Part shown: positions 48,431 to 52,612 of the stretch, piece by piece | Position numbering within the stretch: position 1 is the stretch's first letter | Layout: every line of letters starts with the position of its first letter | Assembly: GCF_020524765.1 (NCBI RefSeq) | Contig: NZ_JAIVLR010000001.1 | Coordinates: 558,001 to 622,000, forward strand | Length of the DNA stretch: 64,000 nt | From: Qipengyuania gaetbuli | GTDB lineage: Bacteria; Pseudomonadota; Alphaproteobacteria; Sphingomonadales; Sphingomonadaceae | Direction of reading: 5' to 3' | Made by a program: the position numbers and the translations under genes | The notes under the pieces: generated by a model | Seen by the model: only the letters and a program-made list of their open reading frames with translations | Databases searched by the model: none | What the model was told of the DNA's origin: nothing

Positions 48431-50014
48431 TCAGAATTCCAGCGGGATAACGGTCTTCACGCCTTCCAGCGCGCAAGCCGCCTTGACCACATCCTGCGGG
48501 ATCGGCTGGTCGACACTGAGCAGCAGCACCGCTTCCCCGCCCGCTTCGCGGCGGCCGAGGTTGAAGGTGCCGATGTTGATGCCGCTTTCACCCAACAGCG
48601 AACCGATACGGCCGATGAAGCCCGGCGCGTCCTGGTTGACGATGTAGAGCATGTGCCCGTCGAGCTCGGCTTCGATGCGCACGCCGAAAATCTCGACGAG
48701 ACGCGGCGCTTCCGCACCGAACAGCGTGCCTGCAACCGAACGGTCGCCCGCATCGGTTCCGACCGTCACGCGCAGGAGGGTGTTGTACGCGCCTTCCTTC
48801 TCGTGCCGGATCGAACGGATATCGAGGCCGCGTTCCTTCGCGAGGAAGGGCGCATTGACCATGTTCACCGTGTCCGAATACTGGCGCATCAGCCCTGCCA
48901 GCACCGCGCCTTCGATCGGCTTGCCCGACAGTTCTGCCGCCGCGCCTTCACGCTCGATGCTGATCTTGGTGAGGTTGCCATGCGCAAGCTGCCCGACGAG
49001 GCTGCCGAGGTTCTCGGCAAGGCCCATGTAGGGCTTGAGCTTGGGCGCTTCTTCCGCGCTGAGGCTCGGCATGTTGAGAGCGTTGGTGACGCCTCCGTTG
49101 ACGAGGAAATCGGCCATCTGCTCTGCCACTTGCAGCGCGACATTGACCTGCGCTTCGGTCGTGCTGGCGCCGAGGTGCGGGGTGCAGATGAAGTTGGGCT
49201 TGCCGAACAGCGGGCTCTCGTTGGCCGGTTCGGTCTGGAACACGTCGAGCGCCGCACCTGCTACCTGGCCGCTGTCGAGTGCATCGGCGAGCGCGTCTTC
49301 GTCGATCAGGCCGCCGCGCGCGCAGTTGACGATGCGCACGCCTTTCTTCGTCTTGGCGAGGTTTTCACGGCTGAGGATGTTGCGCGTCTCGTCGGTCAGC
49401 GGCGTGTGCAGCGTAATGAAGTCGGCACGCGCCAGGAGCGTGTCGAGGTCGACCTTCTCGACCCCGATCTCGATGGCGCGTTCGGGCGTGAGGAAGGGGT
49501 CGAAAGCGACGACCTTCATCTTCAGGCCAAGCGCGCGGCTGGCGACGATCGAGCCGATGTTGCCGGCACCGATCAGGCCCAGCGTCTTGCCGGTCACCTC
49601 AACGCCCATGAAATCGTTCTTCGGCCATTCACCGGCCTGCGTGCGGCGGTCGGCAGCAGGGATCTGGCGGGCCAGCGCCATGATCATCGCGATGGCGTGT
49701 TCGGCCGTGGTGATCGAGTTACCGAAGGGCGTGTTCATCACGACCACGCCCTTGCCGCTGGCATAGGGAATATCGACGTTGTCGACGCCGATCCCGGCGC
49801 GGCCCACGACCTTGAGATTGGTCGCGGCATCGAGGATTTCGGGCGTGACCTTGGTCGCCGAACGGATGGCGAGGCCATCGTACTGGCCGATCACGGCCTT
49901 GAGTTCATCGGGCGTCATGCCCGGCTTCACGTCGACGTCGCAGCCACGCTCTTCGAAAATGCGGGCGGCATTCGGGTCCATCTTGTCGCTGATGAGGACT
50001 TTGGGTTTGCTCAT
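48431..50014 (-). CDS. serA: D-3-phosphoglycerate dehydrogenase
   Basis: First enzyme of serine synthesis from glycolysis, NAD-dependent. The 527-aa protein has the substrate domain, the NAD-binding 'GLIGAGNIGSIVASRA' (about 147-162), catalytic Arg in 'NCARGGLIDEDAL' and His in 'TPHLGASTTEAQ', then an intervening ASB domain and a C-terminal ACT domain ('NQDAPGFIGRIGSLLGESGIN') for serine feedback. It lies 90 nt after serC, with a GC hairpin between them, and before hisZ; all are likely under the serC leader RNA. Confidence 0.94.
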   Translation of the reverse strand: MSKPKVLISDKMDPNAARIFEERGCDVDVKPGMTPDELKAVIGQYDGLAIRSATKVTPEILDAATNLKVVGRAGIGVDNVDIPYASGKGVVVMNTPFGNSITTAEHAIAMIMALARQIPAADRRTQAGEWPKNDFMGVEVTGKTLGLIGAGNIGSIVASRALGLKMKVVAFDPFLTPERAIEIGVEKVDLDTLLARADFITLHTPLTDETRNILSRENLAKTKKGVRIVNCARGGLIDEDALADALDSGQVAGAALDVFQTEPANESPLFGKPNFICTPHLGASTTEAQVNVALQVAEQMADFLVNGGVTNALNMPSLSAEEAPKLKPYMGLAENLGSLVGQLAHGNLTKISIEREGAAAELSGKPIEGAVLAGLMRQYSDTVNMVNAPFLAKERGLDIRSIRHEKEGAYNTLLRVTVGTDAGDRSVAGTLFGAEAPRLVEIFGVRIEAELDGHMLYIVNQDAPGFIGRIGSLLGESGINIGTFNLGRREAGGEAVLLLSVDQPIPQDVVKAACALEGVKTVIPLEF

Positions 50015-50104: not shown

Positions 50105-51262
50105 TCAGCCGTTCTTGACCTGCTCGTAGGCCCATTCGATCCACGGCAGGAGACGCTTCAGGTCTTCCTGTTCGACCGTGCCGCCGCACCAGATGCGCAA
50201 GCTCGGCGGGGCATCGCGATAGCCGTTGAAGTCGTAACCGACGTCGCGATCTTCGAGCAACTTGACAATCTTCTTCGGAACGCCCGCCTTGTCCTCGTCG
50301 GACAGGCTTTCGTACCAGTCGCCCTGGAAGACGAAGCACACGCCGGTGTTGGTCTGCTTGGCAGGGTCCGAGACCATGTTGCGCAGCCACGGGGTCGCCT
50401 CGATCCAGTCCTTGACGATCTTGGCGTTGGCATCGGCGCGTTCGAACATGGCCTTGCGGCCGCCGAGCGCCTGCGCCCATTCGAGCGCGTCGATGTAGTC
50501 TTCGGTCGCCAGCATCGAGGGCGTGTTGATCGTCTCGCCGCGGAAGATGCCTTCGTTGATCTTGCCGCCCTTCTTGAGACGGAAGAGCTTGGGCAGCGGC
50601 CATTCCGGATCATATTCCTCGATCCGGTTTACTGCCTTGGGGCTGAGGATGAGCATGCCGTGCTGGGCTTCCGAGCCCATCACCTTCTGCCAGCTGTAGG
50701 TCGTGGCATCGAGCTTGGCCCAGTCCATCTCCATCGCGAAGACGGCGCTGGTGGCGTCGTTGATGGTCACGCCTTCGCGGCCTTCGGCCAGCCAGTCGGT
50801 GTTCGGGATCTTGGCGCCCGAGGTGGTGCCGTTCCAGGTGAAGACGACGTCATTGTCCTGCGGGATCGACGCGAGGTCGGGGATTTCGCCGTAATCGGCG
50901 TCGAGCGTGGTCAGCTTGGGCAGCTTGAGCTGCTTGACCGCATCCTGGATCCAGACATTGCCGAAGCTTTCCCATGCCGCGACCGTGGCCGGGCGGTCGG
51001 GACGCAGCATCGTCCACATGGCGCATTCCAGCGCGCCGGTGTCCGAGGCGGGCATGATGCCGACCAGGTAATCCTCGGGCACGCCGAGCATCTCCTTCGA
51101 CAGGTCGATGGCATATTTCAGCCGCGACTTGCCGAGGGCGCTGCGATGCGAGCGACCGAGCGATTCGGTTTTGAGGTTGGAAGCCGACCAGCCGAGATGC
51201 TTGGCGGTCGGACCCGACGAAAAGAAAGGGCGCTCAGGCTTGAGCGTCGGTTCGGCAGTCAT
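50105..51262 (-). CDS. serC: Phosphoserine aminotransferase
   Basis: Converts 3-phosphohydroxypyruvate to phosphoserine with glutamate and PLP. The 385-aa protein is of the longer alphaproteobacterial type, beginning 'LKPERPFFSSGPTAKHLG'; 'FTWNGTTSGAKIPN' and 'INDATSAVFAMEMDW' are PLP-contact regions and 'YSWQKVMGSEAQHGML' holds the PLP lysine. ATG 51262 is preferred, because GGAGAG lies 5 nt upstream inside the candidate leader hairpin; the frame is open to 51364 but that part is leader RNA. It is first in serC-serA-hisZ. Confidence 0.94.
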   Translation of the reverse strand: MTAEPTLKPERPFFSSGPTAKHLGWSASNLKTESLGRSHRSALGKSRLKYAIDLSKEMLGVPEDYLVGIMPASDTGALECAMWTMLRPDRPATVAAWESFGNVWIQDAVKQLKLPKLTTLDADYGEIPDLASIPQDNDVVFTWNGTTSGAKIPNTDWLAEGREGVTINDATSAVFAMEMDWAKLDATTYSWQKVMGSEAQHGMLILSPKAVNRIEEYDPEWPLPKLFRLKKGGKINEGIFRGETINTPSMLATEDYIDALEWAQALGGRKAMFERADANAKIVKDWIEATPWLRNMVSDPAKQTNTGVCFVFQGDWYESLSDEDKAGVPKKIVKLLEDRDVGYDFNGYRDAPPSLRIWCGGTVEQEDLKRLLPWIEWAYEQVKNG

Positions 51263-51325
51263 GTATTCTCTCCTTGCAGAGAGCACGCGCGGCGTTGGGA
51301 CCGCGTGGCCCACTGTCGGCAATAA
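51263..51325 (-). ncRNA. Candidate serC leader RNA (cis-regulatory)
   Basis: On the minus strand the region before serC folds into two hairpins. The first is GGGCC-ACGC-GGUCC (51297-51311). The second is CUCUCU-GCAA-GGAGAG (51268-51283), a 6-bp stem with a GNRA tetraloop in which the 3' arm is the serC ribosome binding site, 5 nt from the ATG. The Rfam 'serC leader' family, described in alphaproteobacteria upstream of serC-serA, has a final stem overlapping the ribosome binding site, and location, gene order and architecture all agree. A TTGACT box near 51340-51345 could be the promoter. The ligand or trigger is unknown. Confidence 0.72.
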
Positions 51326-51436
51326 TGTTGCGACGCAGCAAGTCAATGCGAAATAGGAATGCATCGACAGGCTGGTCGCCCTGCCGGATCAACGCCCTCT
51401 CGCCAAAAACGGTCCAGCGCCTTATGGGCGCAGGCA

Positions 51437-52612
51437 ATGGACGTGACGGACCTTCGCATCGCCCTGTTCAGCGGGAACTACAATTACACCCGCGACGGCG
51501 CGAATCAGGCATTGAACCGGCTGGCGGATTACATCCTGCGGCAGGGGGCGAAGCTGCGCGTATATTCGCCGGTCGTCGAAGCGCCGGATTTCGAGGCGAC
51601 TGGCGACCTCGTCGACATCCCCAACGTCCGGATGCCGGTGAAGGGGCGCGGCGAATACCGCCTGCCCCTGCGGCTCGGCAGTGCGGTTGAGGAAGACCTT
51701 GCCCGTTTCGCGCCCAACACCATGCACCTCTCCTCGCCCGACCCGGCGGCGCACGGGGCGCTGAAATGGGCCCGCAAGCGCGACCTGCCCGTACTGGCGA
51801 GCGTGCACACCCGCTTCGAAACCTATCCGCGCTATTACGGCCTTTCCTTCCTCGAACCGGTGGTCGAGGCAGGCCTGCGCCGCTTCTACAACCGCTGCGA
51901 CGCGCTGGTCGCACCCTCCGACAGTCAGATCGCCGAGCTGAAGGCGCAGCGCATGCACGAGGACATCAGCATTTGGTCGCGCGGGGTCGACCGCGAGATT
52001 TTCGATCCCTCCAGCCGCGATATGGAATGGCGCCGCGCCAACGGGCTGGCAGACGATGACGTGGCAATCGTCTTCCTCGGCCGGCTGGTCATGGAAAAAG
52101 GGCTCGACGTGTTCGCCGACACGATCGTCGACCTCCGCAAGCGTCAGGTACCGCACAAGGTACTTGTCATCGGTGACGGCCCGGCTCGCGGGTGGTTCGA
52201 GAAAACGCTGCCCGGCGGCATTTTCGTCGGCTTCCAGACCGGCAAGGACCTGGGCCGCGCGCTGGCGAGCGGCGACATCTTCTTCAACCCGTCGATCACG
52301 GAGACCTTCGGCAACGTCACGCTGGAAGCGATGGCCTGCGGCCTGCCCGTGGTCGCCGCGGGTGCGACCGGCGCGGCGAGCCTCGTCAGCGACGGGGAGA
52401 CGGGGCGCCTGGTCCCGCCGAGCAAGACCGATGCCTTCGCCAAGGCCTGCGCCGAAGCGCTGGCTGCCTATTGCACGGACGATGCGCTGCGCCTTGCGCA
52501 TGGCGCGGCAGGCGAGCGTGCGGCCCGTGCCTACAGCTGGGATGCGATCAACCAAGCGGTGATCGATACCTACCTGCGGCTGCACACCGGTCGCGCAGCC
52601 GCAGGCCGGTAG
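51437..52612 (+). CDS. Glycosyltransferase family 4 (mannosyltransferase-like)
   Basis: Retaining GT-B glycosyltransferase of 391 aa, likely transferring a hexose such as mannose from a nucleotide sugar to a lipid acceptor. The N-terminal 'ALFSGNYNYTRDGANQALNRL' segment and C-terminal 'FLGRLVMEKGLDVFADTI', 'VIGDGPARGWFE' and the E-x7-E motif in 'TETFGNVTLEAMACGLPVV' fit the GDP-mannose-dependent alpha-mannosyltransferase (MgtA-like) group. ATG 51437 is chosen for the conserved N-terminus; an upstream ATG at 51359 lies in the serC promoter region. It is divergent from serC and convergent with the four-helix membrane protein. The acceptor is unknown. Confidence 0.86.
   Translation: MDVTDLRIALFSGNYNYTRDGANQALNRLADYILRQGAKLRVYSPVVEAPDFEATGDLVDIPNVRMPVKGRGEYRLPLRLGSAVEEDLARFAPNTMHLSSPDPAAHGALKWARKRDLPVLASVHTRFETYPRYYGLSFLEPVVEAGLRRFYNRCDALVAPSDSQIAELKAQRMHEDISIWSRGVDREIFDPSSRDMEWRRANGLADDDVAIVFLGRLVMEKGLDVFADTIVDLRKRQVPHKVLVIGDGPARGWFEKTLPGGIFVGFQTGKDLGRALASGDIFFNPSITETFGNVTLEAMACGLPVVAAGATGAASLVSDGETGRLVPPSKTDAFAKACAEALAAYCTDDALRLAHGAAGERAARAYSWDAINQAVIDTYLRLHTGRAAAGR

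Follow-up and report, generated by a model that had tools for sequence, protein, structure and literature searches.

A serC leader of the RF00517 family in Qipengyuania gaetbuli, and a proposed 5' pseudoknot supported by comparison with diverged tandem copies

Background

What does the short sequence immediately in front of serC in Qipengyuania gaetbuli represent, and how might it control the gene? We address this question in a window of 64,000 nucleotides of the genome (the whole stretch of DNA that was analysed, with positions counted from its first letter). The original prediction, made from the letters of the window, proposed that serC is preceded by a leader RNA of the Rfam serC family, with two hairpins of which the second closes over the ribosome binding site (RBS), and that the leader senses serine, phosphoserine or some other signal. 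Corbino et al. (2005; PMC1273637), in the sections available to us, inferred sequestration of the RBS for this family and reported in-line probing without ligand that supports a two-stem structure. According to the part consulted of a 2020 review (PMC7266159), which refers to serC as a long-standing orphan, additional conserved sequence and structure were described for it by Greenlee et al. in 2018.

Results and discussion

Gene context and family assignment

The leader occupies positions 51315-51263 of the minus strand and directly abuts the serC start codon (ATG, 51262-51260). The gene (50105-51262, minus strand) encodes a phosphoserine transaminase of 385 amino acids that scores 604 bits with NCBIfam NF002841 and 536 bits with TIGR01365, and it is followed on the same strand by serA, encoding phosphoglycerate dehydrogenase (48431-50014; TIGR01327, 670 bits). 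All three scores exceed the equivalog cut-offs, and the predicted position of the leader in front of a serC-serA pair is thereby borne out. The gene after serA resembles HisZ, with a score below the curated NCBIfam cut-off. A longer open frame of serC starts at 51364, but its ATG lies 5' of the predicted promoter (see below), so the longer frame would be off the serC transcript. On the plus strand, a divergent open frame (51359-52612), glycosyltransferase-like by eye, has a short region in common with the serC promoter.

A regional scan of 271 bases with all Rfam models, run with filters laxer than the default ones, matched the serC leader model RF00517 over its complete length (model positions 1-52) with 43.2 bits against a gathering threshold of 35 (E-value 1.3e-8). 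This is the covariance-model check that the original prediction had proposed for itself, and its identification of the family is therefore correct. With the default fast filters, a scan of all 64 kb missed RF00517 and reported two tRNAs only. The same regional scan also returned a DUF3268 match of 11.8 bits against a gathering threshold of 65.3, which we take as a chance hit. Our own covariance models R1 (built from 26 leaders) and R2 each matched the window once, with 60.2 and 55.5 bits, respectively, scores that are to be read with the window sequence being among the training sequences of both.

Members of RF00517 combine two stems, a GNRA-capped hairpin over the RBS with no more than 11 nt between it and the start codon, a promoter directly 5' and serC-serA directly 3' (Corbino et al. 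2005; PMC1273637, in the sections available to us). The window leader has the score, both stems, the GNRA hairpin, a promoter recognizable in the sequence and the two genes, and it is an ordinary member of this known orphan family. It differs from the Rfam consensus in the arms of the first stem, which read CGCGGU/GCCGCG with a U.G closing pair rather than CCCCUC/GAGGGG. The scores differ as well: matches found in the genus of the window have 42-45 bits, compared with up to 65 in other families of the order.

Of the 60 genus genomes (counting the genome of the window, which itself gave no match), 16 matched RF00517 with strict filters, as did 49 of 99 relatives overall and 114 of 385 genomes of the class, leaving 271 of the 385 without a match. 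Among the control genomes of the search in relatives, only Caulobacter vibrioides gave a match. Model R1, on the other hand, identified the leader in all 40 genus genomes searched. Since fast filters miss RF00517 in most genomes of the genus, although the match in the window exceeds the gathering threshold, the public annotation of the family in this genus may be under-reported. The association with serC is almost uniform: all but one of the 155 matches outside the window are located at most 71 nt 5' of serC on the same strand, the exception being a weak match (locus L154) with no serC, and serA is present within the same locus of roughly 3 kb in 147 of 154 cases.

Two stems and a rejected alternative fold

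The stems were assessed in 131 distinct leaders, derived from 156 matches (154 loci and the window) after removal of six rows (L154, the second copy in L045, L038 and L151-L153). P1, the hairpin CGCGGU-CCCAAC-GCCGCG at 51288-51305 of the minus strand, corresponds to the Rfam structure; each of its pairs is standard in 129-131 of the 131 leaders, and most positions vary in pair type, with up to six standard types. P2, the hairpin CUCUCU-GCAA-GGAGAG at 51268-51283 of the minus strand, is the second hairpin of the original prediction and likewise agrees with Rfam. Its pairs are also standard in 129-131 of the 131 leaders, pairs 1-4 varying on both sides and pairs 5-6 being invariant, and its loop is GNRA in all 131. 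As these alignments were fitted to the model structure, the counts for both stems somewhat favour it. The 3' arm of P2 contains the serC Shine-Dalgarno sequence GGAG, and five bases separate the hairpin from the ATG.

The other hairpin of the original prediction, GGGCC-ACGC-GGUCC, is present as a sequence (51311-51298), but it does not represent the fold of the family: only 8 of 131 leaders form all five of its pairs, compared with 129-131 for each pair of P1 (51305-51288), with which it is mutually exclusive. Computed folding of the isolated 51-nt element gives as its minimum (-18.7 kcal/mol) a register-shifted relative of this hairpin, in which UGGGCC and the loop ACGC are followed by GG, a bulged U and CCCA, and as its centroid (-17.5 kcal/mol) a structure with P1. 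Four pairs of the register-shifted hairpin, UGGG with CCCA, are the same as those of the pseudoknot proposed below, and the two others occur as standard pairs in 21 and 8, respectively, of the 131 leaders. Energies do not separate the rival folds in the window, nor is folding energy clearly above that of shuffled sequence for the element (z -1.04; 34 of 200 shuffles as good), for the P2 hairpin alone (z -1.89; 12 of 200) or for a region of 126 nt (z -0.10; 83 of 200). It is because of conservation and covariation that we regard the leader as more than a chance structure.

Promoter register and the 5' end of the transcript

The original prediction extended the RNA element to 51345. Positions 51316-51345 appear instead to belong to the promoter, the RF00517 match reaching to 51315. 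The predicted -35 box, TTGACT (51341-51346, minus strand), begins at a distance of exactly 35 nt from the leading G of a conserved GGG; the -10-like box, TATTGC (51319-51324, minus strand), follows after a spacer of 16 and fits the upstream consensus, which has T at -13 and A at -12. This spacing recurs in relatives: among 140 leaders with distinct upstream sequences, tandem loci being left out, 113 have their best TTGACA-like box 35 (82 cases) or 36 nt (31 cases) before GGG. Because of this fixed distance the serC mRNA probably starts on the GGG strand or within a few bases of it, which in the window would place the start at about 51314-51311, as judged from the sequence. Corbino et al. (2005; PMC1273637), in the sections available to us, likewise noted putative transcription starts immediately 5' of the motif.

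A proposed pseudoknot between the 5' end and the P1 loop

We propose that the 5' strand UGGG (51309-51312, minus strand) pairs with CCCA in the loop of P1 (51299-51296, minus strand). The geometry would be that of an H-type pseudoknot, in which the 5' triplet is followed by a loop 1 of 3 nt (CCA, 51306-51308, minus strand), the 6-bp P1, the CCC strand with no gap, and a loop 3 of 3 nt. Among 121 distinct modules (from 153 of 156 rows) both GGG and CCC are invariant. GGG is preceded by C or U without exception, and the loop base opposite is A in 120 modules and G in one. Standard pairing at this fourth position occurs in 55 of 131 leaders, and at the fifth position most modules have no pair (G.A in 70 of 121). 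Outside P1, three bases are nearly invariant: A12 (119 of 121), A22 (120) and C24 (120). Columns 12 and 32, the last base of loop 1 and the base after P1 (A51306 opposing C51287 in the window), hold A.C in 119 modules and G.U in two, and G.U or G-C in further leaders.

Because ordinary leaders show no variation in the two strands, and because the models were built on those very bases, the support for the pseudoknot has to come from 13-16 diverged copies found upstream of ordinary ones. In 16 such copies, parsed by hand with one row each, the first base of the triplet and the third base of the loop strand are C-G in four, G-C in three, U-A in three, A-U in one and C.A in five. Thus, 11 of the 16 are Watson-Crick pairs, against a mean of 5.3 in shuffles, of which 3 in 100,000 (7 in 100,000 in a rerun) were as good. 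The set includes L176, with an irregular loop, and L055, whose copy is not adjacent; when these and L172 are left out, 8 of the 13 surest parses are Watson-Crick (shuffle mean 4.8; 468 of 100,000 shuffles as good). A first automatic parse, which counted L167 and L174 twice and read L172 in another register, was weaker, with 8 of 16 pairs standard and 591 of 20,000 shuffles reaching that number. The upstream copies are related to one another, and none of the shuffle figures takes account of this relatedness. The diverged copy in L055 (1429-1478), in which AGG faces CCU, lies 88 nt upstream of the ordinary copy.

With this qualification, the pseudoknot is supported by comparison of sequences. 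The consulted parts of six papers (PMC1273637, PMC7266159, PMC3766115, PMC9481103, PMC2873474 and PMC3616915) contain no description of it or of tandem copies that we could find; it may already be in print in Greenlee et al. (2018).

Tandem leaders in an apparently Kordiimonad family

Most of the diverged copies come from one family of the same order, apparently Kordiimonadaceae. A scan with a pattern derived from the tandem copies returned 19 records, of which 13 bear the names Kordiimonas, Pseudokordiimonas or Kordiimonad-, one is Eilatimonas, one is labelled Sphingomonadales and four are unplaced Alphaproteobacteria. The leader is present in 27 of 29 genomes of this family, and in 23 of the 27 an adjoining second, weaker RF00517 match lies on its upstream side, at a distance of 51-54 nt (L001, L002, L005, L008, L045 and most of L155-L174); model R2 adds one further genome (L172). 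The second copies have E-values from 1e-6 to 0.47, under a threshold of E up to 1 at which 5 of 14 control genomes also match RF00517, one of them above the cut-off. What gives the second copies weight is therefore their constant position next to the first. No adjacent second copy was found by R2 in the 134 loci searched among the 145 of L001-L154 outside this family. The window, with a single R2 match at E up to 1, has no second copy either and is not of the tandem type.

Among the 23 distinct tandem loci, 19 have their best -35 box 35 nt 5' of the upstream triplet, one has it at 34 and one at 36, and two have no good box; in the region 28-42 nt before the downstream copy no hexamer better than 3/6 was found in any of the 23. 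As the box is in register with the upstream and not with the downstream copy, the upstream copy is predicted to be part of the transcript and to form its 5' end. At this 5' end the triplet frequently reads CGG or UGG; GGG is retained in the internal, downstream copy. The upstream copies mostly have an RBS-type hairpin of their own, CUGNRAGG being present in five of six aligned.

Leaders without P2

A regular expression for the pseudoknot module matched 168 of 170 sources (L001-L154, L199-L213 and the window), which gave 155 distinct sequences of module plus tail. A lax search found a hairpin of the RBS type, with a minimum of 5 bp, in 146 of them. Among the nine others, a mismatch interrupts P2 in L042 and L058, and the remaining seven (L153:1540-1590, L202, L203, L206, L208, L209 and L210) have no hairpin of this length, although the pseudoknot module is kept. 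It follows that P2 can be lost while the module stays. All seven have G before P1 facing U or C, as opposed to the A facing C of 119 of 121 modules; the G is not strictly tied to the loss of P2, as L151, L152 and L199-L201 have it and pass the hairpin search.

Possible mechanism and its alternatives

We consider it likely that the RF00517 leader acts in cis, with the GGG/CCC pseudoknot as its sensor and P2 over the RBS as the means of translational control of serC-serA. The leader, of about 50 nt, would control the translation of serC and, via the operon, probably that of serA. The mRNA would begin at or just before GGG, which would fold back onto CCC in the P1 loop to form a compact H-type pseudoknot, joined by a short linker to P2, whose 3' arm is the RBS. 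The pseudoknot would act as the sensor of a small molecule or of a protein; once bound, it might stabilize P2 or block the 30S subunit, so that serC-serA would be off when the signal of the pathway is plentiful, and where P2 exists the access of ribosomes to the serC start would be controlled through it. The direction of control, the switching step and the existence of any ligand are the parts of this scheme that we infer.

As a tentative extension, which we would hold with less than even confidence, the 5'-terminal pseudoknot can be regarded as the sensor and P2 as an exchangeable output, the two tandem sensors of Kordiimonadaceae acting together, either cooperatively or on two signals.

As for the signal, sensing of serine, as originally suggested, finds no support: seven candidate compounds, L-serine among them, had no effect on probing of the leader in 2005, and phosphoserine is not among the compounds named for it in the sections of that paper available to us (Corbino et al., PMC1273637). 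The original view that the family had no assigned ligand agrees with its orphan status in the consulted part of the 2020 review (PMC7266159). We also looked for a second target gene that could name the ligand. Model R3, which describes the module only, matched 129 of 385 class genomes with strict filters, and all 15 R3 loci that lack an RF00517 match (the window's own genome excepted) precede serC; hence, the search over the 385 genomes produced no second target and no clue to the ligand.

The leader could instead be bound by a protein that senses a metabolite of the serine pathway and represses or derepresses translation, in a manner like that of PyrR with pyrimidine genes, as was suggested in the available sections of Corbino et al. 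(2005; PMC1273637). The element is small, the seven metabolites left its probing pattern unchanged (PMC1273637, same sections), and the strong conservation of the loop and of the 5' triplet is as compatible with a protein as with a small molecule. However, every module match followed up precedes serC, except the weak L154, which leaves no second target to point to a regulator, and we regard protein binding as somewhat doubtful. We find it unlikely that the pseudoknot and P2 form a constitutive structure that senses nothing and only sets a low rate of translation or shields the 5' end of the mRNA. The leader does lie at the predicted 5' end, the ligand-free probing mentioned in the Background (PMC1273637, same sections) gave the two-stem structure, and in an unsystematic look we noticed no alternative pairing partner for P2; yet the near-invariance of A12, A22 and C24 and the tandem duplication exceed what a static hairpin seems to need.

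Our preferred reading, a pseudoknot sensor coupled to P2, has one further competitor, in which nucleotides are sensed at initiation. In Bacillus subtilis pyrG and Escherichia coli pyrC, slippage or the choice of start site at initiation changes the 5' end. A similar process on GGG, altering the 5' end and the fold, would suit the predicted start on or near GYGGG, but it is very improbable, because the frequent CGG and UGG at the 5' ends of tandem leaders offer no GGG run on which GTP or CTP could drive slippage, while the internal copy retains one.

Known systems compared and implications

In its proposed layout, the serC leader is comparable to the preQ1 and SAM-II riboswitches (PMC1273637 and PMC7266159, in the parts consulted). 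These, too, are short leaders with a compact pseudoknot made of one stem-loop and a short distant strand. Unlike them, the serC leader has the free strand 5' of the stem and the RBS in a separate hairpin. The tandem leaders resemble the tandem aptamers of the glycine (gcvT) riboswitch in that two versions of one element stand side by side (PMC7266159, part consulted), but they differ in that most upstream copies have an RBS-type hairpin of their own; the window has one copy only.

With respect to the family as a whole, the copy in the window is ordinary, and it is the tandem copies in its relatives that most deserve the attention of specialists, as they provide the covariation by which the pseudoknot can be examined, which ordinary leaders do not allow. 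Leaders that lack P2, in turn, separate the possible sensor from its output. Together, these two types suggest RNAs for renewed ligand trials in which the natural 5' end would be included.
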